This document shows positions 45,613 to 64,000 of a stretch of DNA of 64,000 bases, in pieces (positions within the stretch are counted from its first letter, which is position 1; every line of letters starts with the position of its first letter). The stretch spans positions 4,216,001-4,280,000 of the forward strand of contig NC_079490.1 in NCBI RefSeq assembly GCF_020520425.1. The letters are read 5' to 3'. The DNA comes from Spinacia oleracea (Eukaryota > Streptophyta > Magnoliopsida > Caryophyllales > Amaranthaceae). The notes beneath the pieces were generated by a model. It made no database searches and was not told the DNA's origin. It saw only the letters and a list, made by a program, of their open reading frames with translations. A program made the translations under genes and the position numbers.

Positions 45613-48600
45613 TCACAGCTGACTTCTAAGCATGTTCCTCCATTTATCTTTCAAATCTACATTACTTCTTCCCTCAAATGCATCACCATGACATTGCAAG
45701 ATCAATTTCCAGTTCCTGCCCAACTCCTTTACTGCAACCCTCAACGTATCCTCTTCTTCCACACTCCATTTCTTTCTTCCTTTGATGAGAGGTTGAGGTT
45801 TTGGTTTTGGTTTATCTTCATACTGCTCCAAAGGGGTTACCTTACTCCTCTTTGGACTAGGAGGTAAGTGTAGCTCACTACCTCTGTTCACATTATCAAT
45901 TGAATCATCCCATTCAAATGTATGACTAGTTCCATTAGCCTCCATCAAACTACGCTTACTTCTATGCTGTTTCTTCGGATCATCAGTCTCATTGTTGCCT
46001 TGTGCATCTCCTGCAAGCTCGGGCATCTCCTCCTCTACATTCTCAGTGTTCTTCTCAGTTGCATGGATAACTGGTGGTTGTATCTGGTTTTCTAACACAT
46101 CATCATTGCCCGTGTTTCGGTTTTCTAACACAGCATCATTGCCCGTGTTTTGGTTTTCTAACACAGCATCATTGCCCGTGTTGTGGTTTTCAAACACAGT
46201 ATCACTGCCCGTGTTGTGGTTTTCAAACACACCATCATTGCCCGTGTTTTGGTTTTCTAACACATCATCATTGCTAGTGGTTTGGTTTTCTAACACATCA
46301 TCATTGCTCGTGTTTTGGTTTTCTACACCTGTCACATGACCAGTACCATGGTTTAAAGTAGCACCAACTGCAGAAGACAAGGTCTTAGCTATTTCAAGAG
46401 CTTCAGGAAGAGGATCTGTGACAGCCTCATGCAGCTCCCTAGCACTGAAATTAAGTGCTTCCTGCACTCTTCTCACTTCGGGCGTTTCATGTGTTGTCTG
46501 CTTTTTTATAGCATTCAAATTACTCATGTTGTCTGTCACCTTAGTTACTGACATATTATGAACTGCTTCAAGAGGATCAAGATGAGAATCACTCACATCA
46601 GCATGCAGATGAAAGGAATTGGATTCAAGTGCTTCTTGAACTTTGTCCATTTTGAAGATAGGGGCATCATTGTCTTTTCCACATGACAAATTACGAGCGG
46701 TTCGAGAAGTGCTAGGATGAGAATCATTCACAGCACCATGCAGCTGCGTGGAACTGGGTTGAAGTGCTTCTTGAACTTTGTCCATTTTGTAGATAGGGGC
46801 ATCATTGTTCTTTCCACATGATAAATTATGAGCAGTTCGAGAAGTGCTAGGATGAGAATCATTCGCAGCACCATGCTGCTGCGTGGAGCTGGGTTGAAGT
46901 GTTTCTTGAACTTTGTCCATTTCACGGGTTTGGATATCATTGGCCGTGTTCATAGATGTTTCTGCTGCTTCAACAGCATCAAAAATCTTTATGCCTCTGG
47001 GACGCCTAGTCTTAACTGCAACATGTTTCCGCCGATTAAAAGCCTGGCTTTCCACTAATCCTACTAAAAAAAATACATACTTTTAATACGGAAAGCTGTA
47101 TTAAAGAACAAGCTTCAAGATTAAGACCAGAACATTGACAGTGAAAGGGAGAAGAAAACTAAGAGTTACAGCTGAAACAGATACAAGACCAGCAACATTT
47201 TACCATGATAACGTGTCGTATTTATATTTTACCCCTGTTGGTTCAGAAGTTACATGCACAGTTAAGAAAAATCCCTTATACTACAATAAAATTAGTCTAA
47301 AATTCCCTATTCAGGCAAAATGTGTTTCATGCTTTCTCTCTGTAAATCCATATAGTATACTGGTGCAATCGGCAAAACATGTATGGAATCACCAACATAG
47401 AAACACCTCGACTGGCAATCAATCCATTAAAGCAATGCACTACTCCATTTTACCCCCATTTACAAAAAGAAAATTGATGTTACAATACACCATCCAAGGA
47501 AATAACAAAACACTACAAGGAACTATACTTTCTGCCCATCAAGTAATAGGGTAACTAATACTTGACTTTTGAATTACATTGAACTCTGCCCATCTAATTA
47601 TCATGGAATCAACTGTGGTTATATTGTATATAGATGAAAGGTCAACAAGAAACAAGCTCTTTGTTAACTGTGGTTATTGAATATAAATGAAATGTTCTAC
47701 TGAAAAGATTTCAACTGTGATTCCTTGGTCACTTCATTACCTACAACTCTTCAAGCTTCAACATTTCTCAATAGTTATCACACATTTCATTCATAATAAG
47801 AAAAAAAACGGTTCTCTAATTCGATTTTGTGTTATAATAAACTATCCATTGGCATAGCTATATTAACAGGCAGGACAATAATTCCATCAAACAAACCAAA
47901 ATCATAAAAATTAAACCAACAATTAGCCAAAATCAAACAAATTCTACCTTGAGGATCAATCAATGTGCGGCACGGATTATCCGAACCCACCACCCCACCA
48001 CTACCACCACCACCACTACTACCACTACCACCACCACCACCACCATCACCACCACCACCACCCTCGCTTCGACATAGCTCCCCCACATCATTCCCTACCT
48101 TCAAAGCCACCAATTCAAGAAATGACGGTCCCATACTCTCCCAAGCTTCCTTCAAATACCTTTTAACAGCCCTTAAAGCTTCATTCCTGGTATTCCTCAT
48201 CAAAATCTTCTCACAAACACTAGAATCCCAAACCGCAGCTTCAATATCCTCTAGCCACCGGTTTAATTCTTCCGACACCAAACTTTCCACTTTGCAAACC
48301 CTATCCCTCCAAACTCTCTCCACCGCTTCGAAATACTTCCCGTTCTCCTCCACATTTTCCTCCAGAAACCTCACCGTACAATCCACCGCAACCGCACAAT
48401 ACGCCCTTTTCATAGAATCCGGCACCGTTTTACCCGCCCCGTGATTCAATTCATCGACCATTTCAAGTAATTCTAGAAGCTTCTCGGACACTGAACCATC
48501 TGAAATCGCCGATTCAATTTTCCGCAGCAAAATCGTCTTCTTCAACCGTTTATCGTTGTTGGAAAGAGGGAGACATGAGAGTACGCCATTGATGATTTTC

Positions 48601-49170: not shown

Positions 49171-49179
49171 TCCGGCTCT

Positions 49180-49473
49180 GTGCGCAATTTCGATGGTGCA
49201 GGCGTGTGCACCTAGATCTAGGTGCACTGGGATTAAAACGCAAACATTTTAAAACAAAACGCGTATTTTCATTAATTCTGCAGTTAAAAAGAACAAGTCT
49301 CACAATACAAAAGAACATCATGTGCTCTGTTCTTCCCTGTTTAGTTTTCGCGATTTTTTTTGTTCTTCGCTCCTTTTTATATGTCTGGGCTTCATAATTT
49401 TGAATTCAAAAAGTGTGAATAGGAGAGAGAAAGCTTACATTTGTGCATAAATTTTTTTTAGAGAGAGAAACTG
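49180..49473. promoter_or_regulatory. Upstream region of the transposase gene, possible left end of the MULE
   Basis: Begins near a GTGCACCTAGATCTAGGTGCAC palindrome (about 49,207-49,228), then AT-rich sequence with AAAAGAAC words in the antisense orientation and GAGAGAGAAA just before the ATG. If the transposase and Ulp1 genes share one element, its left terminus should be here. I find no convincing inverted partner inside the window. Confidence 0.3.
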
Positions 49474-52400
49474 ATGGAAAATTCTCAAATATTCCATGAT
49501 TTCTCTGTTTCAACATCAATTTCGAATGATTCTTCTTCTTGTCATCTGAATTCTTCAGCTGAAAATCAGAGTTACGAAGGTATTATTTCAATTTGTAATA
49601 ACGAGTTGCATTTTTCTTTGATTTTATGATTTCGATTTCATAATAATCGTACTTTTTATGTTTTTTGTGATTGTAATTAGTTTGATTAATTTAATTTTGA
49701 ATCTCATTCTTCGTTGATTTTGGTGATTGTTGATAATGAAGGTTACGAATTGGTTTTTTCGTTGATTTCGCATTTATTTCATTTATGTGGTGAAACTGAT
49801 TCTGTAATAACTATTATATTTAAGGAAGATACGTTGATTTTGTCTGTTTGCAAAAAAGAACATTGTATCATTTCAGAAGAACATTTTTCAGTATCAAATG
49901 AACATGTTAAGAATACGTATTGAGACGTTCCTTTTTATTATATTTAGCTTTTCAAATAAACACTGATTGTTCTTTATTGATTGTTCTTTTAACTCTTCAT
50001 TGATTGTTCTTTAAGTCATAGTGTTCTTTTCGGTCACCTTTTGTGTTCGTTTACTCTATTTTTATTGTTCATTTTAATAGTTACTGTTCCTTTGATTCTT
50101 TATTGGTTTTTTTATTATATTTGCACGGATTTTTCTTTTATGTTTTTATGAGTTTACATTGTTCTTTTGATTGACAAAATTGATTGTTGATAATTATGCC
50201 GATATTGTTCTTTTAGGTTTTAATGTGTTCTTTTGATTGACAAAACTGATTGTTCTTTTAACTGTTTATTGATTGTTCTTTTAATGCGTAGTGTTCTTTC
50301 CAGTCTAGTTGGAGTGTGTAATTTACTCTTGATGCATTGTTCTTTTCTAATAGGTACTGTTGTTTTTTATTCTTTATTGGTTGTTCTTTTATATCTGCCC
50401 AAATTGTTCTTTTAAGTTTTAATGTGTTCTTTTGATTGACTAATTGATTGTTCTTTTAACTCTTCTTTGATTGTTCTTTTCATGCCTAGTGTTCTTTTCA
50501 GTCTACATGGATTGTTCGTTTACTCTGTGCATTGTTCTTTTTAATGGCTACTGTTCTTTTAAGTTCTTTTGTTCTTTTCTTTTTCTGATTTTTTTTATTT
50601 TATAAATTTCCAGATATATTAAATAATTCAGTTAATAATTCAGAACAAAATGATGCTAATGAGGATCCAGAATCCTATGTGGTTATTGGCCAAGGTACAT
50701 GAATTGTACTTTTACTTGTTTATCACAATGTTCGTTTACGTCTTGTGTTTGTTCCTTTATCATACTTATGATGTTCTTTGTGTTCTTTTTTATCGTCATG
50801 CAGATTTTGAAAACCAGTTTCATTAGAGGGAAGTGTAGTTAAGGATGATGATGAGGCGTATGAGTTATACAACAGTCATGCATTTAGGAATGGTTTTGGT
50901 ACTAGGAAGGGTAAAAAGGAGTATAGAAGTGGTACTAGAATAGTTCGACAACGGTTTTTTGTTTGTGCATACGAGGGGTTTAAAAATCCAGATGGTGTTG
51001 TGCCTAAATCCTTTAAAAAAATTGATAGGAGAACTGGATGCAAGGCTTCAGTTCAGTTTGATGTTGATAAGAAAACTGGAGTGTATGTTCTTTCTAAACA
51101 TTCCCGTCTGCATAACCATTCAATGGTTCCTGCTAATAAGAGACACCTTATTAGGTCACATAGGCACATTTCAAAAGAACAATTGGCTTTTCTTACTACT
51201 TTTACTTGTAGTGGCACGAAGCTTGCTGATGTTCTTAGAGCTATGAGGAAAGAAGTTGGTGGTGAGGCGAATTTAGGGTTCACTGTTCCTGACGCGTATG
51301 ATGCTGTTTTGGCAGAGAAGAAGAAAAAGTTGGATGGTTGTGATTCAAATCAGTTGATCAGATGGTTCGCTATGAGGCAAGCTAAAGAACATGATTTTTA
51401 TTATGATTTTCAATTGAATGAAGAGAATCAGTTGATCAATTTTTTTTGGAGAGATGGAAGAATGCGGTCTGATTATGAAGCTTTTGGTGATTTATTGATT
51501 CATGATACAACTTATCGTACTAATAAATACGATATGATTTGTGGGCCTTTTGTTGGAATGAATCTTCACACTCAAAATATCATGTTTGGAGTGGGTTTTA
51601 TATTGAATGAGAAGGCAGGTACTTTTGACTGGCTTTTTAATTCTTTTTTGACTTCAATGGGAGGGAAGCAACCTGTGACTATCATGACTGATCAATCTTC
51701 TGCCATGGACAAGGCTATAAGGTAAAGTTCTTTTAGGTTGTTTGTATGTTCGTTCATCAAACACTTTTGTTCTTTTGTATTTTTGTACAATTTTTTATGT
51801 TCTTTTTCTTTTGTCTTTTTGTTTAGTTTATATTTTTATCTATTTTTTTGGTTTATGGTTTTTTAGGGAAGTGTTTCCAAAATCGAGGCATCGTTTGTGT
51901 ACATGGCACATAGGGGAAAATGCTGTTGTAAACATCAAAGGTGTTATGGCCAAAGAAGGTTTCAAACGTCGGTTTGATTATGTTTTGAAATATACTGACA
52001 CAGTTGCTGAGTTCGAGCATTATTGGAATAGGTAAAAATTATTTTGCTAATAGACTGATTAGTATTTAAAATTTTGTTTTGTTCTTTTCATTCGACGACA
52101 TGTTTTTTGTAATGTTAAATAGTGTTCTTTTCATGGTTGATGAAACTTGTTCTTTTAATCTGGTATTTTAATGTTCTTTTCTTTGTTTAATAGAGTCCAT
52201 ACTTCTTGAACTGTGATTGTGTGTACTTTCTTTTCAAGTTTTATTGTACTGTATATTGTTCTTTTTTTGTCTTCATTTGTTCTTTGTTTTACTCAGGGCG
52301 TTCGTTTTGTGTCTCTGATTGTTCTTTTGTTCTCCTCGTTTGTTCTTTTGTAGTCTTATGACTGATTACAATTGCAAGACACACAAATGGATAGAGAGGT

Positions 52401-53984
52401 TATATGATTTGAAAGAGAAATGGTGTCCTGCATATAACAAAGAGTGGTTTTCTGGGGGTATTTTATCTTCTCAAAGGAGTGAGACGACAAATCATTCTAT
52501 TTCTAGGAGGTTGCATAAAACGAATGGTTTATGTGATTTTTATAAGTGTTTTTTAGATGTAATTGATGAATGGAGAAGTAAGGAGAACAAGGGAGATTAT
52601 AATTCTTCTACTGGAAATAGATATTACGCATGTGCGGATAACATGTTATGTTTGCATGCGCGGGATGTGTATACCATTGCAATATATTTGATATTTGAGC
52701 AACGATTCATCAAAGCAATTGGTTTGAGGTGTCAACGCATTTCCTATGAGTTTCCAGTTTCTAAGTACATTGTTGGGCATCCTACAAAGGATTTTATTAG
52801 ACATGTTGTGATGTTTAATGAGCAAGAGTTGGTTGTTGATTGTACTTGCAAGTCATATGGAGAGATAGGAGTTCTTTGTTCTCATATTCTTCGAGTTTTC
52901 ATTGTCCATAATGTTGAAGAGATTCCCAAACAATACATTATGAAGAGATGGACCAAAAAGGCTATGAACATGATTGTTGAAGAAGGAGAAGATAGAGATA
53001 ATGAAGTAAGTGTTGTTTCTGCTTCAGTTTGGAGGATGCAAAGCATAAGAAATTGCATTAAAGTTATAAATGAAGCTCAACATTGTCCGGCTGCAAGGAA
53101 GCTTATTGATTTGGGTGTGTTGGATATGTCATGCAAAGTGAAGGAGTATATTGGTGGTGTTGAAGGGGATGGTAATGTATCAAACAAGTATGTGCGAGAA
53201 GAAACTCTACTTGATGGCATTGAGCCTTCAACAGACACAGTTTTGCCGGATGTTGTTGAACCGATTGCTGAAAAAGTCATTCCAACAATGATTCAAAATC
53301 CACCAAAGCGAAAGAGGAAGATTAAGAACGGGACTGAAAAGGCTAAAGAGAGGAATGTGAGACCTAAAGGAATTGTTGAGAAGAAACGCAATAAACTGAA
53401 AGGTTGGAACAAGAGAAGAGAAAGACATGTTGATAATTTGAGGGAGGAAACTCAGTCTACTGATCAGGTAAACTGTTCTTTTTAAACATTTATTTGTTCT
53501 TTTATTACTTTGGAATGTTCTTTTTGTTTATCATTGTTCTTTTTTCCATTTTTATTTTCTATTTATCCTTTTTGTTTATGATCTTTTAGTTTACTTTATT
53601 ATGTTCTGTTCTTTTTAATAATCTATTTGTTCTTCTATTCCTTTAGTTTGTTCCTTTTGTTTATCATTGTTCGTTTTTCTTTCTATATGTTCTTTCGTCT
53701 TTTTGTTTATGTTCTTTTGCTAAACAGTTCATTTTTAAAAAAAACATCTATTTGTTCTTTTAATGTTTATTACGTTCTTTTTTGAACTGTTCTTTTTTAT
53801 TATCTATTTTGTTCTTTTTTCTTCTTTATCATGTTCTTTTATTCCTTATTGTTTGTTTGTTCTTTTTCAGTGTATCATAAATTTACCTGTTGGTGGGGTT
53901 TTGGTTCATCCAACATCTTCAAATTCACAATTGGAAGCATATGTTCCAGATGATTATTTTGGAGTACACATACAACCTTTGTAG
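49474..53984 (+). CDS. FAR1-type Mutator-like transposase, six exons
   Basis: Exons: 49474-49579, 50614-50694, 50818-51721, 51867-52031, 52354-53467, 53871-53984; all GT-AG, joining to 827 aa. FAR1 zinc finger at about 75-165 (C112, C137, H161, H163). MULE catalytic domain at about 285-420, with D292 in HDTTYRTNKY, D354 in MTDQSSAM, CTWH at 375-378 and a Glu at 412 or 414. SWIM zinc finger C582, C584, C594, H596. The basic tail at about 720-790 may be nuclear-targeting. The exon 3 acceptor is the least certain: I used the AG at 50,816-50,817, because the nearer AG at 50,802-50,803 meets a stop. Intact catalytic residues suggest an autonomous element; a domesticated FRS gene is the alternative. 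All five introns are filled with TGTTCTTTT in the sense orientation. Confidence 0.88.
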
Positions 53985-54075
53985 ATTCATTTACGATTGG
54001 TAATATTTTTATTTTTAGTTTGTTGTGTTTTTAATCATTTGTTTTTGTATTCTCAACAATGTTCTTTTACTCTTT
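49960..54075 (+). repeat. TGTTCTTTT motif field, plus orientation
   Basis: Dispersed copies of TGTTCTTTT and one-base variants fill all five transposase introns and the first 80 bp after the stop. In intron 1 alone I count about 17 exact copies in some 600 bp. Exons are almost free of it. The last plus-orientation copy is near 54,060. Confidence 0.9.
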
Positions 54076-54529
54076 TGATGTATATTTTTACGGGCTACTG
54101 ATGTTTGGCTCATTCAATATTTTGAAATGAGAATTTTTAGTTGTATATATTCTTATTTTTGTTTTTATTTTTGTGCAATTAGGATTGCAAAATTATTGCA
54201 TAAAGGAGTATATTCTTAAATGTGAAAAGAACTTACTAAAAGAGAATAAAAAGAATTTTGGAAAGGAAAGAACATATCCCATGATATAGAAGAACATGGT
54301 CTGGGATTGAAAAGAACTTGAACCTTTAATTGAAATACTTGTTTAAAATATCCAAACTACTTATCTGCAACTACTAGAACATCTAATTGTTTCCAAAAGA
54401 ACACCACACATGTTTAAAAGAACAACCCATAACTCCAGCAATAACCATATCTACAAAATATACCATTGTTTTTTAAAGCATACTTCTAATAAAAGGTAAA
54501 TATTATTCTGCCTTCATGAAAACAACCAA

Positions 54530-57500
54530 CTATTCAACTTGATTAGCTCTCTTCAATGCCAGATACATTAGCTCATGCCTTTTGTTCAGAACGGATAATA
54601 AGATTTCAGTACCGTACCGCATTCTCAGCCTGCAAATAAAGTCTTTCTGAAAACATAAAATAGTACATTAATAAAAGATTATATATTAAAATAATATACG
54701 TACATATATTCAAAATTTACTTACATCTTCATCTGTGTTTTTGAAGCCACAATTCCAAGTCTGGTTGCCTTTGTAGGTCTCCATATGCCTCATTGCATAT
54801 ACCCCACAATCAGTCTTGTTTGTTCTGTTCTTCCATGGCATTTCAAGCAACACAATTTCATATGCTGAAATCTGTGCCTTCCGCAAAGGATGTCCTTCTT
54901 GTTCAGAAAATATTGTCCATGCTTCAAACTGAAATAAAAAGAACATTTAACTTAGTAAAAGAACAAAGAACAACAAAGAAACATAGAACAACAAAGGAAG
55001 GAAAAAAGAACATTTAATTTAGTAAAAGAATAAAGAACAACAAAGGAAAGAACAAATAAAATATATAAGAGGAAATTCTTCAAATAGACTTACAGTTCTT
55101 TCTGCAAATGTTTTATATTTATCATCATATGTAATTCCTTCAGGTAAGGAGAGATTGTCAATGATCTCCACCTTCTTCGCCTTTTGGTTGATTACAATGA
55201 GATAAAAATGATCACCAGACCAGACTGGAAAGAACAACTACAAGCAGAGAAAAGAACATTAAACAAAGGAAAAGGAACATATGTAAAAAAGAAAAGAACA
55301 ATTTTATAATTTTACCAGATGGAATCCCTTCAAAGACTTCACACCAGCAGTTTCATACTCATGGCGTACACTTAAAATAAAATTTTCTAAGCGTTTGCTT
55401 TCGGTTGCTTGACTATCCTGTGATCCACCATACGGTTCATTCTGGCAGAGCATATTCTGCACCGAAAAAAAAATAATTTTAAATATATGTTATATAATAA
55501 AAATTATTGAAGAAGTACGAAAATATGATTTTTTAGTGATATTAAAACTTACGAAAGGGATTGTAGAGAAATAGAACTTCAAGTTACTCTTGACACTTTG
55601 ATCTGGATCATCATTCAGTATTCTTGCAAAAGTGTCAATAACATTATTCATCACCCACGCATTGGGAGCTGTTTTAAAGGAAAAGAACAAAAATATGAGT
55701 AAAAGGAACATCAACAGCATTTAAAAGAACATTTTAAATTCCAATAATTAAATATATACCTAGGGTTTGAAACTCTTCTCTGGTAACTATATTCCAATCA
55801 TCAGTGTACAACACCTGACTGTTATAAGAATGAAAATAAAATTTCCATAAGAACATGTACAAAAAGAACATCTACATTCAAATACTTGTAATAGTATAAA
55901 ATTCTTACGTTGGGCTTCCCTTTCCAAAGGCATAATCCAGTACGCATCGCATGTCCTTTTCCTTTTGATTCAACTGTTCTTCCCCAACCAGTAGGTGTGA
56001 ATACTGAGTTAAGAAGGGTGACAGTAACTTGAGGGGAACATTTTTCTTTCTCTTAACAAGTTTAGGTACTTGTACGTTATCTGGATCCTCTTCCTCACTT
56101 ATGAAAACAAAGACATTATAAAGTAAAAAGAACATATTAGCGGGAAAAACGAATTCAGACTAACAATAAAAAGAACAACAAAGTGAAAAGAAAAGAACAT
56201 TTTATAAATGATAATGAAAAATAACTTGTAATAATAAACGAAAAATAACTTATAAAATAAAATGCAGTAGTCATACTCTATGTTCATAGATGTAGGTGCA
56301 TTTTCTGGTTGCGAGTACACCGCACTTGGAGTGCTAAAAGAGTGGAAAGAAAAGAATATATTACTATAAATAAAAAGAACAAAAGCGAGAAAGAAAAGAA
56401 CATTAAATTGAAGATTATGAAAATTATATTTTAATAAAATACAGTAGTCTTACTTCAGGAATATTGATGGAGTTTCCATTTCAGTCTGCGACTCAGCAGC
56501 AGTTGGAGTATTAAACTCGGATTCTTCAGTTCTAACAGTTGGAGACATGGGGTTTCCATCTTCAGCTCCTTTGATTAAACCTTCCATAGTCTAAAACTCG
56601 GAGTCTTCAGTTCTAACGGTTGGAGACATTGGTTTTCCATCTTCAGCTCCTTGGATTAAACCTTCCATATCTGATCTCACATTTTCAGGTTCTCTGTGTA
56701 TTACAAAAAAAAAAGAACATGTGAGGAGGAACAAAGAACACAATGAGAAGAATTAAAGAACAAAAGTGCAATGAAAAAGAACATATAAGTTAATATTAAA
56801 AGTAGGAAGATATTAAAGTAAATATAGAAAGAACATAAAGAAATATATGAAAGGAACATTCCGAATAAAAGAAACAAAAGATCCATTAAATAATTGTATA
56901 AAGACAGAGAATTAATAAAAAGAACAAATCAAACGAATAAAAAAACAAATAATTGTTTATAAAAGAACATTGTGAATAATGAAAGAAACAGTCACATATT
57001 TATTATACATGTGTATGTGAACTGTTTTAAAAGAACGCATACTCAGTTTTTTCTGTAGGTGGCTGTTGTTTTTCAGCTTCATTTTTGTTGTCCCCTGAAA
57101 TTGTCTCCAAATCACGTTCAGTCAAAGTTTTGTTTGCCAAGATTGCTTCTAATCTCATTTCCTCTTCAAAGTCGTGTGCCTGAGGAGGAGGATTTGAATC
57201 GGAAACCATTCCAAGCTTCAATGTCAAATCAGCAAATACATTAGGCTGGGAAGGCATGATCGGAGGTGTTAAAAATGGTGGCAAATCAAATGTAACATCC
57301 TCAGATTCCTTGATTTCCTTTCTTTCATTTCCTTCTGTTGCCTTTCGTACTGCTTCCTCAAATAGTATTGTGAAGTAGTCTGAACTGAAAAATTCTTTAT
57401 CTTGACTGAGGATTGAACCAATCTCCTCAGTATTCCTTCCTTCTTGCCGCTCTTCTGTAGAGTTGCCCTTCTCAAAAGTAACTGGAATTTCAGTTCCAGA

Positions 57501-60500
57501 GCATGTTGACCACATTTTTGCCATATTGAATGGCAGACTTTTTTTGACATCAATAGTAGTGTCAAAGAACTTTCTGGACAACGACAATAAGTCGTTGAAC
57601 TTGTTCATGACACTACTGAGTTCAGTAGTGGTTTTAGTGAATTCAGCATGGAATTCCTGTTTAACAATAACAACAATAAGGACTGGATAAATAAAAAGAA
57701 CATTCGAATGGAAAAAAGAACAAGAGAGATCCCTAAAAGAACATTCAAGTAGAACATAGAAACATTGTTAAAGATCGAAAGAACATGTTAAAGAGATAAA
57801 TGAACATGTAAATAACATGCTTAAACATATAAAAGAACATTCAAATGTAAAGAACATCTTTTTAAGAAAAAAGAACATGCTTAAATAACATGAATAAACA
57901 TTTAAAAGAACATGTAAAAGAACGTAAAGAACTAGTTTTTGATAAAAAGAACATAAACACAGAAAGCAAAAAACATGGTAGGAAAAAAGATTATATTGAG
58001 TACGTAAAAGAACATTTGTTGGAGGAAAAAGAACATTACAACAAAAACGTTGAAAAAATAAATGCAATGGTTTTGTTGAGTGAATTTAATTTTTACCTCA
58101 ATTGTAGAAGGGACTTTTGCTTTCTCACTGGGGTCTGCCTGTTGCTCTGGCAAATCTTTGTCATCCCCGAGTTGAGTCACTGGTGCACCTTGATGTTCTC
58201 TGGACACATCATTTGTGGACCAGTTAGGCTCTTGGTGTTGATGTTGCTGTTGTGGTTGCTGCAGTGGTTGCTGCGATGGTTGTTCATCATGTTGCTGCTG
58301 TTGTTGTTGTGGGTGTTGAAGAAGAAGTGGTGGTGGTTGTTCACTGAGTGCTTTTTGCTGTTTGAGCAGCTCCATATCCTCCCTGTACAGTTGTAGCTCA
58401 GGTGGACCTTGAATTCTGTCCAGAATCAAGCCATGTCCGAAGCCTGTAGCATTGTCATTGCGTACCCTGCTGCTTATCATATCTCTTGTCCAGCAAGAAA
58501 TTAGGGGGAAGTTCCTTGGAGGGTACTCTTCCATGATCTGCACCCGATCGAAATAACATACCTAATTTAACAATAACAACATAATTTATTGTTAGTTAGG
58601 TGAAAGAAGAAGATGAAAGTAATATATATATAACAAAGGGAAATGCTAGCTTAATGATTGAAATTTACCATTAGAAATGGTAGTGGACCAGCAAACCATC
58701 TGCTACGGTCCACATTCCAGTACATAGCTGCCCCAAGAAGGCTGGTGTATGCATACTGGCACCAATTTAGATTCCTCACTTGCTCCAAGTCAACAGTGCT
58801 TGCTAGGAATCTGAAGTTTGGCTTTTGAAACAGAAAAATATAAAAGAAAAGAACATTAATTATGATTTTAAATAGAATAAGAAAATAGAACATTCAATAG
58901 AAAATAAAGGAACATTAGAGAGAATGAAAAGAACAATGAAAGAAGAGCAAAAGAATATTGAATACAACTGAAAAGAACACAACTAACATTCATATAAAGG
59001 AAAGTACAACAATAGGACAGTGAAAGAGAAAGAAAGAACATGGAATTCGACAAACAAATAAAAGAACAATAAATATTAATAAACATTTAAAAGAACATAA
59101 TACGCAAACAAAAGAACATTAATGAGAAATAAAAGAACATAAATGAGAAACAAAGGAATTTTGATGTAAGAAAGAACATGGAATATCATACAGAATAAAA
59201 GAACAGTGAGAAATATTTAAAAGAACATAATACGCAAACAAAAGAACATTAATGAGAAATAAAAGAACATTAATGAGAAACAAAGGAATTTTGATGTAAG
59301 AAAGAACATGGAATATCATACAGAATAAAAGAACAGTGAAAGAGAAAGAAAGAACATGGAATTCGACAAACAAATAAAAGAACAATAAAAATATTAATAA
59401 ACATTTAAAAGAACATAATACGCAAACAAAAGAACATTAATGAGAAATAAAAGAACATTAATGAGAAACAAAGGAATTTTGATGTTTACCGATAAATTAG
59501 TAGTGGATTTAATGCAGGTGTTAACTGCAACCACTAGGAAAGATCTCTTCCAGTTATCATCAACTGGAGTCTCATCTTTGATCAGTTTTTCAACCATTTC
59601 TTTCAATTTTGGGCATCCAGACTTCACTTGCCAGTATGCCCAAAATTCAGCAAAAACCCTCAACACTTCAGGATCTTGTTCATCCGTCCATTCCACGACC
59701 GGAGCTCCTCCAATAGGTATACCGTACACCAGGTATACATCCTCTACAGTAATATCAAGGGAAGACTTTGGTAGATGCAAGGACCGGTCGGACGAGTTGA
59801 AATTCCTAACCAACTCGTACGGGAATGGATTTTCGTTTTGTGGGATGTCAAGTTGCAGAAGAGATCCAAAGCCTAACTCCACGATGGCTTGTTGTTTTCT
59901 TATATCATGTGGTTCATTAGATGCAATTCCCCTCAAGAATCGCATCATCAATTGCGGAGTTTGCCTTAGATTTAGTTTCCTTTCTTCAGGTTTTGGTTTG
60001 GCAACAACCAAAGATTTTGGTTTCTCATCATCCACCTCCTCCATGACCTCATCAGAAACAACAATTTGTTTACTTCTTGTTGCTCTCTGGAAAAAAGAAA
60101 AAATATAAAGAACATTAGTCAGGGAGTAAAAGAACATTATATGGAAGAAAAAGAACAAATAACTTAAGAAAATTTTTGACCTTCTCAACTACTTTTTTCC
60201 CCTTCTTCATTAAGGGTTCACTTTCCTCTTCTACTTCTTCACCTTCTTCTTCACCTCCTTCTTCATCTTCCTCGTCTTCATAAACCTCCCTCACAACTAT
60301 CTGATTAACTTTGCTACCCCTCTGAATGAAAAAAGAACATAAATGATGATGTAAAGAACACAAGACAGGAAAAAAAGAACATTCTTTATTTAAAACACAG
60401 CATTTATCTCTATTATAATATAACATTAAGGTAAATAAAAAGATATACAAAAAGGGTAATGTGAAGTTTACCTTAAGTGCTGCAGTCTTTTTCAAAGTAA

Positions 60501-62996
60501 CTCCATTCCCCTTCTTAGCATTTGGTGCAACTTTTTTTGTTGAAATTTTCTCAGCAGGCAACAAGCTCTTCTTCTTATGTGCCTCTTCCAATTCCTGCTT
60601 TACCTCTTTGATAAGATCGGGAAATTCTTCTTTCAGCAATTGACTTCTGTTGACCAAAACAATAGAACATAAGTAGTAAAAAAAAAGTAAAACACAGAAA
60701 ATAAAAAGAACACCATTTATGTAAGTTACCTTGTCCTTTTCCTGTTTGGTATTGATTTCCTAGACTTCCCCTTTGCTTTTTCAGGTTCCTCACCAGCTTC
60801 TTCTCCGTCTTTTTTCTTTCTAGTAAAAACATAAATGCAAAAGTATGTTTAAGAAACGAAAAATAACAACTACAATGTAAATATGAAATAGTATTAACAA
60901 ACACAGATGATACCTCAAAGTAATTTTTAAGTTCGTTTTCTTTTCTTTTCTTTCTGGTTCATCCAGCTCTTCTGGAACTTTTACCTCAGCCTCCTCTTTT
61001 TCAGGTTCTTTCACTTCTTCATGCACTTTTACTTCATGCTCTTTCTTTTCAGTTTCTTCCTGCTTTTCAGGATCTTTGCTGGAATTTTTTTGTCCTTCTC
61101 CACCCTTCTTTTTTTGTTCAATCAGATCCAGCTGCTTTTCCTGTTGTAGCAGCTTTTCCTGAAGTGCTTGCACCATCTTCTGTTGTTCTTGCAATGCTTT
61201 CCTTTGTTTGGAAAGTCTATAATGAAAAAATATATGTCATGAAAAAAAGAACAACACCAAAAACACATGTTATGAAAAAAGAACAACAGAAAAATGTTTA
61301 AAATAACACATGTAATGGAAAAAGAACAACATGTCGTGTACAAAAGAACACAGCTATGCTTTTGGAAAGAACACATATTATGAAAAAAGGAACAACACAA
61401 AAAACAAGTGCACAGTTCTCATCCTGCACCCTTGTACAATATCTTATTCATCTGATTTTTTTTATTTTTTCATATACAATATATAAATAATGTTTGTCCT
61501 CCATATTCTCATTCATTCATCATTTCATAATTTTAGCAACACATTTTAGAGAGAGAAAAATGAGAGGTTTTATTTTCTCTCAACAGAAGAGAGAATTTAA
61601 GAGAGAGAAAGAGTGAAATGCGATTTCTACTTTCTTCTCTCTCCAACTTTTCGCATTATTGTTCCTGTTTTTTTGAGAATTAGTGAATTAATCAGAATAC
61701 TAATTCTCAGGAGATGAAAAAATACAATTTGCTAATTTTCGTAGAAAGAAAATTGAAGGAGATAATGAAATTCAAGAGGATTGTGATCATTTGCTGAGGA
61801 TTTATGTTGATGTTGTTGATAAATGTTGTTCAACTGTTGATCAAGGTATGCTTATATGTTCCTTTTCTTATGTTCTTTTTATTAAGTGTTCTTTTACTGT
61901 GTGCTAACAGTTTTAGGTTTGTCTTTTAAATGTAGATGGTTTGTTCTTTTATCCGTGATTGATTGTTCTTTATTTTTTAAAATACATTTAAGAACAAGTA
62001 AAAAGAACACCATCTTATCAAATCTAAGCACATTGTTCTTTTTAATTTTCATTGATTGTTCTTTTAATGCCTAGTGATCTTTTAAGTAGACATGGACTGT
62101 TCTTTTCTTCTAGATGCATAGTTCTTTTTAAGCCTACATTAATACTGTACTGTTCTTTTGAGTGTACATTGGTTGTTCTTTTGAGTCTACATTGATTGTT
62201 CTTTAAACCTGCACAGTTGGTTCTTTTAAGTTTTTATAGATAAGAACATAGATAAAAAAGAACATAGATCAAATTCAATAGATAAGAACAAAATTATAGA
62301 TCTAGGTTTAAGTTCGTCAAAATTGTACTGTTCTTTTTAGTCTATTTGTTGTTCTTTTAACCTGGGCGAATTGTTCGTCAAACAGTAGGGCTAATAAAAA
62401 GAACAGACAGTAAATAAATAAAAGAACATAGATCTACTTATTTAATTTAAATTTCCACTGTTCTTTTGAGTTAACATTCGTTGTTCTTTTAAATCTATAC
62501 CATTGTTCTTCTAAGTGTATGATTCAGTGACTTAAAATACATTTAAAAAAAAATATAAATGTAGATCTACTTTTAAATTCGTTAAAAAATGTATTTGGTT
62601 TCGTTATTGTAATTAGAACATTAAGGAAAACAAAAAGAACAAACAGAAGGTGTAAATGAACCTAGGTTTTTGTTTAAAAAATCCACTTACTCGCTCTCTT
62701 CTTCTTCTTCTTCCGTTTCTGAAACTTCTTTGTTGATATCTTCCAACAAATCCGCATCAATTGTTGGTGTAATTTCTTTCTCTTTCTTCTTTTTGTTTCT
62801 TAAGTTCAATAAAGTCGTTGTCAAAGGAACATCATCCCTTCAAATGAAATTTTATAGAAAATTAAAATTCATGGGAAATTCTCTAAAAATTAAAATTAAA
62901 CTGAAATTCAAGAAAAAAGAAAAGAAAAATGAAGTTGAATTCTTACTCAATAGAACATTTCGCATCAACTTCTTCTCCTTTTTTCGATTTCCCCAT
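54530..62996 (-). CDS. Ulp1-like cysteine protease gene of MULE type, 19 exons, one in-frame stop
   Basis: Exons: 62996-62947, 62837-62691, 61216-60914, 60819-60730, 60646-60472, 60321-60181, 60086-59490, 58821-58669, 58537-58097, 57656-57043, 56693-56454, 56333-56277, 56097-55909, 55818-55760, 55668-55553, 55456-55316, 55237-55094, 54928-54725, 54646-54530. Phases join to 1,326 codons. Residues 60-300 are Lys/Glu-rich. About 303-552 resemble the N-terminal domain of plant transposon Ulp proteins; a Gln/Pro-rich stretch follows. The Ulp1 (C48) fold is at about 1,085-1,290 with H1181 (GDHFYL), D1198 (IIDN) and C1260 (TDCGVY). The usual glutamine about six residues before the Cys is not seen. 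Codon 938 (56,593-56,591) is TAG. Exon 11, which holds it, is 240 bp, so skipping it keeps the frame. Exons 1-2 are linked across a 1.47-kb intron and are less sure. Known relatives (Kaonashi, CUMULE) cleave or are thought to cleave SUMO-like modifiers. Confidence 0.72.
56505..56670 (-). repeat. 81-bp tandem duplication in exon 11 of the Ulp1-like gene
   Basis: Two units of 81 bp (27 codons), each coding for a segment of the form MEGLIxGAEDGxPMSPTVRTED. They are in frame with each other. The junction carries GAG TTT TAG ACT, creating the in-frame stop; the second unit has GAG TTT AAT ACT at the same place. Confidence 0.88.
58990..59485 (-). repeat. Triplicated 130-180-bp block in intron 7 of the Ulp1-like gene
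   Basis: The sequence from TTTAAAAGAACATAATACGC through AAACAAAGGAATTTTGATGT occurs three times, near 59,088, 59,217 and 59,403, nearly without change. Each unit carries several AAAAGAACA motifs, so this duplication multiplies the motif. It also creates the repeated hydrophobic minus-strand frames here. Confidence 0.88.
61434..61850 (+). other. Motif-free island with an exon-like plus-strand segment
   Basis: Lies inside the long intron 2 of the Ulp1-like gene. It is free of TGTTCTTTT, has GAGAGAGAAA blocks (61,553; 61,596) like those before the transposase ATG, and an open plus-strand stretch at about 61,708-61,842 ending CAAG|GTATGC, a good donor. No ATG lies in that frame. It may be the first exon of a second plus-strand gene or a decayed copy of a MULE 5' end. 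Confidence 0.3.
61855..62640. repeat. TGTTCTTTT field of mixed orientation
   Basis: Plus-orientation copies dominate at 61,860-62,225, then short clusters alternate: minus at 61,985-62,010, 62,240-62,290, 62,396-62,430 and 62,630; plus at 62,330-62,365 and 62,458-62,510. This is the only place in the window where orientation is mixed. Confidence 0.8.
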
Positions 62997-64000
62997 TTTC
63001 AATTGTTAGGGTTCAAGTTTTTGTAACCAGATTATCACTTCCAAAAAACAAATTGGGGAAGTTTTTAGAGTGAAAATAGTAGAATTCCAAATTGGAGAAG
63101 TTCGGATTTGCAATAATTTGAAAGGTTTTGCACTGTTTTTTTGATTGTTGGTGAGTGAAGGTTTTGCATGTAGGTTGAGTGTGAAAGTGAAAATAAATGT
63201 CGCATTCAATGATGTCTTTATATATGATAAATTGAAGAGAGAGAAAATAACTGCTACAGTATTTTCAAATTTAAACTTCCTTTTTTTTTTGTTGTTCTTT
63301 TCGTCCGCTCTTTTGTTCTTTTGGCCTATAAGTAAAGAAAATGATGTTCGTTTGAGTCTCCTTTGTGTTCTTTTTATTATCTGTTGTTAGTATTTTTAAA
63401 TTTGTTTTTTATTAATGTTTTTACTTAAATTATATTTTTTAATTTTTTTTATTTTAAACAGTAATCTATTTTTTAATTTTTTAAAATACAAAATGAAAGA
63501 CAAGTAACTTATTTAATTTTTTTTTTATTAAAAGATTTTGAGGAGAGAGAAATTAACTGCCACGTTTTATGTTTTCATAGGAAAACTTCTGTTTTGCGGT
63601 TTTTTTCTTGCCACGTTCATTATTTCAATAAAAAACTTCTGTTTGGCGGTTTTTTCACTTTTTAACGTTTTTGTTGTTCTTTTCGTTGGTTCTTTTGTTC
63701 TTTTGTGCGTCTGGTGTTGCATTTGCCATGTTCTTTTTAAAAGTGCAGAGAAATCGTTCTTTCCTTGTTTTAACCTTTCTGGTTTTTAATATGTTTGTGT
63801 TTTTCTTTTTTTCTTTTTGTTCTTTTCCTTTACTTTCTGATCTTCTCTCATTTTAGTGTATTATGTTCTTTTACGTGTTTTAATCTTTTTGGTTTTTAAT
63901 ATGATTGTTCTTTTCTATTTGTTCTTTCGTTTAATTGCTGATGTTCTTTCTTTTTAGTGTTTTATGTTCTTTTACGTGTTTTTACTTATTGTTCTTTTAC
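62997..64000. promoter_or_regulatory. Upstream region of the Ulp1-like gene and new plus-oriented motif field
   Basis: No coding frame is credible. A GAGAGAGAAAWTAACTGCYAC block occurs twice (about 63,236 and 63,544), and GAAAACTTCTGTTTTGCGG / AAAACTTCTGTTTGGCGG is repeated at 63,582 and 63,630. From about 63,290 to the window end TGTTCTTTT recurs in plus orientation. The right end of the mobile unit should be here or beyond 64,000. Confidence 0.4.

Follow-up and report, generated by a model that had tools for sequence, protein, structure and literature searches.

A strand-polarised word array in a spinach Mutator-like element as a probable target of a VANC-type anti-silencing system

A Mutator-like element (MULE) occupies positions 49183-64656 (15,474 bp) of the spinach (Spinacia oleracea) DNA analysed here, a stretch of 64,000 nucleotides (the window) that clips the element at 64000. 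In keeping with this host, a Rubisco small-subunit fragment encoded in the genome agrees with PDB 1ir1, which is from spinach, at 75 of 76 residues. The element carries two convergent genes, a transposase gene and a second gene, and its non-coding DNA is densely populated by a short word, counted either as TGTTCTTTT or as TGTTCTTT. Most probably this motif field serves a sequence-specific anti-silencing system of the VANC type as its target array, and it would then be a spinach member of a kind already known in Arabidopsis. The grounds are the array itself, its avoidance of coding DNA, the spacing of its copies, the reduced change inside the motif, the match of a predicted protein fold, and the different words found in related families with the same gene order. 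The anatomy of the element is that of a VANC system, whose biochemistry it would share.

TGTTCTTTT occurs 63 times on the forward and 63 times on the reverse strand of the window, with only one copy on each strand in 1-49182, and none was counted in the 9,344 bp to the right of the element. The field that a sequence-only reading of this DNA had placed at 49960-64000 does exist, and it is wider, coinciding with one transposon (49183-64656). By the gene models, 107 copies lie in 6,492 bp of introns versus a single one in 6,486 bp of exons, as the near-absence from exons described in that reading led one to expect. Outside the gene bodies, the intergenic gap holds three copies, and the left and right terminal regions hold two and 19, respectively. 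A short word that is dense in the non-coding DNA of its element and sparse in the coding DNA is one of the marks of the VANC type, and it is found here.

The array is also strongly polarised. Intron copies comprise 94 in sense and 13 in antisense orientation, whereas 200 dinucleotide shuffles of the introns averaged 1.98 sense copies and never gave more than nine. The dense group of about 17 copies reported for transposase intron 1 was recovered as 17 forward TGTTCTTTT (49982-50578), and the last transposase intron contains 12 TGTTCTTT, all sense (53474-53866, + strand). The arrays of the second-gene introns (54929-61374) lie on the - strand and are sense save in the interior of intron 61217-62690. 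The strand switch falls, as had been claimed, where the 3' ends of the two genes face each other, the last + copy being at 54060 and the next exact - copy at 54395. That the motif is always on the sense strand holds for 22 of the 23 introns, which together have 85 sense copies and one antisense copy. It does not hold for intron 61217-62690 of the second gene (1,474 bp), which is mixed (nine sense and 12 antisense, the antisense ones interior; 14 TGTTCTTT on the + strand at 61871-62490 sit amid sense copies), nor for the terminal regions, whose copies all point outward: two at 49287-49317 (- strand) are antisense to the transposase gene, and the 19 TGTTCTTTT of the right array (63293-64000, + strand, with tandem units that continue past the window) are antisense to the second gene.

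The mixed intron also contains a promoter-like block (61455-61611, + strand) that is 79% alike in a related element, E2, followed by a short + strand open reading frame (ORF) at 61704-61907. The motif strand changes around this segment, which could mean divergent transcription; as a possible third gene, the ORF gave no Pfam match and a best PDB E value of 0.48.

The second gene (54530-62996, - strand) has 19 exons (62996-62947, 62837-62691, and then 17 from 61216 to 54530), and its model agrees with NCBI P0009 and P0001. Its protein is composed of a PMD-like domain, below the Pfam cut-off, followed by a Ulp1 domain (Peptidase_C48 at 22.3 bits, the cut-off being 20.7). The PMD-like domain has a predicted fold like that of VANC21, so that, by predicted fold, the element would encode a protein of the VANC kind, a second mark of the type. 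In the VIA lists VANC21 alone stood out among the families, and absence from such lists excludes nothing. VANC21 was not found when sequence profiles of the second-protein family were searched against the PDB. DUF1985 gave no Pfam match in the second protein of the window copy, PMD appearing below its cut-off instead, and Pfam searches on single exons of the gene found little; in the protein of a diverged relative, L065, DUF1985 is also below its cut-off (E 0.0099). With respect to the Ulp1 domain, the related protein P0010 scores 20.1 bits for Peptidase_C48, just under the cut-off, and the match of yeast Ulp1 to P0001 covers only 76 residues (E 0.0023). The second gene of the window copy has one in-frame stop, located inside a coding tandem repeat (81-bp unit, 1.9 copies, 56513-56669, - strand); repeated, variable regions are reported for VANC proteins in PMC5735166.

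Nearest same-strand copies are mostly 21-23 bp apart in the window copy (W) and in E2 (mode 21), 22 bp in the relative F2 and 20 bp in L065, and the autocorrelation of motif positions shows multiples of the spacing. Genome-wide, 83 of the first 100 listed pairs of AGTAACTAT, the L065 word, are exactly 20 bp apart (14-34 allowed). A spacing of two helical turns would suit an array of DNA-binding sites. Recent tandem duplication has produced some stretches (a 130-bp unit at 59081-59339, with 98% matches, and units of about 141 bp in the copy L009), as would be expected if the array were a neutral tandem-repeat expansion in AT-rich introns, devoid of binding function. Several observations make this explanation very improbable, however. 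A spacing of 21-22 bp persists although many spacers have less than 70% similarity; among the distances of 9-60 bp with such spacers, those of 19-23 bp make up 45 of 96 in W, 44 of 90 in E2 and 19 of 41 in F2, but only 8 of 31 in L065, where the repeats resemble each other more closely. Close motif pairs number 12,762 genome-wide versus 79 in a mirrored control, related families have independent words, and motif columns change less than spacer columns. This last comparison was made on 21 aligned copies, comprising the window copy and, from the 30 transposase loci L011-L040, 20 others (the count omits L011, which is the window copy, L016 and L030, with broken alignment, and the diverged L033-L037, L039 and L040). 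Intron motif columns had 0.049 changes per column versus 0.097 in spacers, and T columns 0.035 versus 0.069; values as low as those of the motif columns were obtained in 35 of 2,000 circular shifts. The reduced change inside the motif may be taken as modest support for a binding array.

The motif word was examined in seven diverged families or copies (E2, F2, L065, L066 and L069-L072; eight loci) of the 133 transposase matches listed; the exon borders in E2, F2 and L065 are homology-defined and approximate. E2 (L060 and L061) is 92% identical in the transposase exon and has a second protein of the P0010 type. It keeps the word of the window copy despite only 68% identity in that protein, with 81 forward and 103 reverse TGTTCTTT in the same layout: outside its coding parts, the transposase gene has 52 sense copies and no antisense ones, and the second gene has 88 sense and 19 antisense. 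F2 (L062-L064; 55% identity) keeps the convergent gene order and has another word, TGTTCA (seven forward, 100 reverse), which runs on one strand through the element, antisense in the transposase gene and sense in the second gene; L070 and L071 have the same word and the same strand bias. In L065 (39%) the word is AGTAACTAT, with GTAACTAT found 58 times forward and 14 times reverse when 0.8 were expected, and inside genes it follows gene direction (7 to 1 and 19 to 4). Words are weak in L066 (TGAACATT, 11 + 1 versus 0.9) and L069 (AAAGAACA, 10 + 2 versus 0.9). Per kb of coding DNA, E2 has 1.09 copies, F2 0.88 and L065 0, versus 19.6, 8.0 and 15.5 elsewhere, within the approximate borders mentioned. 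That the word differs between related families (TGTTCTTT, TGTTCA, AGTAACTAT) is a third mark of the VANC type. DUF1985-domain sequences are very numerous in spinach (at least 149 matches); a scan of five such loci (L073-L077) for dense words gave TTGTAT as the strongest (21 versus 1.5-1.7 expected, in two of them), far weaker than the word of the window copy.

The comparison of W with E2 reveals a mosaic, in which 52300-54016 is 96% identical, 50799-52088 is 86% identical and the matched parts of the second gene are 72-78% identical; by these figures it looks as if subfamilies had exchanged segments. L072, whose transposase belongs to the F2 group, and L078 (C1:3007900-3008899), which matches L072, bear both TGTTCTTT and TGTTCAT words, and the repeats of these two loci are the source of many of the close pairs listed genome-wide.

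The transposase gene (49474-53984, + strand) has six exons (49474-49579, 50614-50694, 50818-51721, 51867-52031, 52354-53467 and 53871-53984) and encodes 827 amino acids with FAR1, MULE and SWIM domains, all above their cut-offs (MULE, PF10551, at 62.9 bits versus 27.6). The elements CACTA and Ac have subterminal repeats that are bound by their transposases. The words of the spinach element might likewise be sites of its own transposase, which has a FAR1 domain, and copies extend into both terminal regions; nevertheless, they are spread through introns along all 15 kb instead of lying close to the ends, and no fold evidence points to the transposase, so that we regard this as the least probable of the explanations considered. 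The relatives do not separate it from a VANC-type array, since the transposases of E2 and W are close, and F2 has a transposase of the same type and a different word.

Another alternative, already raised from the sequence, is a splicing-enhancer array in which PTB- or U2AF-like proteins of the host recognise U-rich UUCUUU words, so that the many introns can be spliced. The 85 sense copies versus one in 22 of the 23 introns, the near-absence from exons and the interior position of the antisense copies of the mixed intron would all fit it. As a primary role it is disfavoured, because dense copies occur outside gene bodies, five of the 18 second-gene introns lack TGTTCTTT, relatives have other words, and the strand of one related group's word ignores gene direction, TGTTCA lying on one strand across both genes in F2, L070 and L071. 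Moreover, the 19 copies of the right terminal region are antisense to the gene that they precede, and a spacing of 20-22 bp has no obvious RNA reason. Altogether, such a primary role appears very unlikely. The suggestion of a binding array for a host protein stands as to the class of function, and the evidence points instead to the element's own protein, by its VANC21-like predicted fold, and to DNA instead of RNA.

We therefore return to the VANC-type system, which could operate as follows. The second gene would give rise to a protein with a VANC21-like folded domain, and this protein would bind TGTTCTTT(T) at many sites, set roughly two helical turns from one another, in the introns, intergenic DNA and terminal DNA of the element's own family, where binding would lift silent chromatin or remove methylation. 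The strand bias would be secondary: local block-wise duplication may spread copies in one direction and, inside introns, selection may ensure that the transcript carries the pyrimidine strand. U-rich sequence is required in plant introns, which may explain why the T strand is the sense strand in nearly all introns here. The strand rule is thus probably a by-product of duplication and of intron pyrimidine selection. A and T are nearly equal in number in the F2-type word, which ignores the strand rule, as a by-product would.

Three points qualify this interpretation. Old tandem duplication is an alternative cause of the constant spacing; the G columns show the reverse trend, with 0.0175 changes per base in the motif versus 0.0095 in spacers; and the L065 word, only slightly skewed, yet follows the strand rule, so that it is less well covered by the explanation given for that rule.

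A more tentative possibility is that the array is written in two registers, a phased DNA lattice and a U-rich intron RNA signal. VANC-like proteins would then sit on one face of the helix, reading a word and a pitch (20, 21-22 or 22 bp) specific to each family, and the pyrimidine strand would be on the RNA side throughout the introns, apart from the interior of the longest. If this were true, the choice of word would be jointly constrained by anti-silencing and splicing, and nearly balanced words such as TGTTCA would be free of the strand rule, as is seen.

The sequence-only reading knew of no description of such a field, which fails for the kind of array: in Hosaka et al. 2017 (PMC5735166), VANDAL elements are described with 9-base motifs in one orientation in non-coding regions, including introns. 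VANDAL21 (Hiun) of Arabidopsis thaliana, with its protein VANC21, is likewise a Mutator-like element whose 9-base word is dense in introns, intergenic and terminal DNA, is in one orientation, is rare in coding DNA and differs between related families; its VANC21 fold (structure 9lnj in the PDB) is the one predicted here for the second protein, and variable, partly repeated regions are shared. However, the word is YAGTATTAY there and TGTTCTTTT in the spinach element, the spinach protein has a Ulp1 domain after the VANC-like domain, VANDAL21 has VANA, VANB and VANC whereas two genes were found in spinach, and the spacing and gene-following polarity are not described for VANDAL21 in the parts of PMC5735166 consulted. 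In PMC13317346, KIU (Kaonashi) genes are Ulp1-carrying VANC genes of MULEs. The spinach protein resembles them by domain content, with a VANC-like and a C-terminal Ulp1 domain in a MULE, although its domain is PMD-like and not a Pfam-recognised DUF1985. In PMC5735166, AT9TSD1 is a repeat outside the VANDAL group that carries VANC6 words and loses methylation through VANC6; by sequence, a similar situation is seen in spinach, where other repeats (L072/L078 type) are likewise filled with TGTTCTTT, next to TGTTCAT words. Within one open-access literature library, searches listed no paper that treats spinach arrays of this sort, and none that treats the VANC21 structure. Anti-silencing proteins of eudicot MULEs reportedly co-evolve with their target words, as Sasaki et al. 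2022 (EMBO J) are said to have described according to citations in PMC10398659 and PMC13317346, and the spinach families would be alike in this respect.

The ends of the element were set by copy comparison. It is flanked by a target-site duplication, GGCTCTGTG, at 49174-49182 and, outside the window, at 64657-64665, and 9-bp duplications were also present in all three other copies read at both ends. The left end, CGCAATTTCGATGG, is common to 14 other fetched copies, single changes aside, and the right end, GCGCGTTG, to three of three. The terminal inverted repeats (49192-49262, partner 64577-64647) are imperfect, with 82% identity over 71 columns and the outermost nine bases unmatched. A transposase domain, a target-site duplication of about 9 bp and terminal inverted repeats define the element as a MULE; it is not filed here as a VANDAL, a lineage recognised by a VANA-type transposase. 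An RVT_3 domain follows on the right, so that the element seems to be inserted in a LINE reading frame. For residues 1-304 of the transposase exon, 21 other matches at least 97% identical are present among the matches listed. In the locus L016 (C3:5344930-5348841), an internal deletion joins the equivalents of 51884 and 60027, and this copy is a possible non-autonomous derivative that keeps the arrays. On its left side the element is adjoined by an ORF (45613-47082, - strand) that has a Myb-like domain at its C-terminus and, in its coding sequence, long tandem repeats (33- and 135-bp units).

If the VANC-type interpretation holds, it would place self-marking of this type in spinach, in a family of many near-identical copies. 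A strand-polarised intron word need not be an RNA signal. Families that are related but differ in word and spacing would, within a single genome, form a natural series for how such proteins read DNA, and the VANC21-DNA structure makes this series testable.
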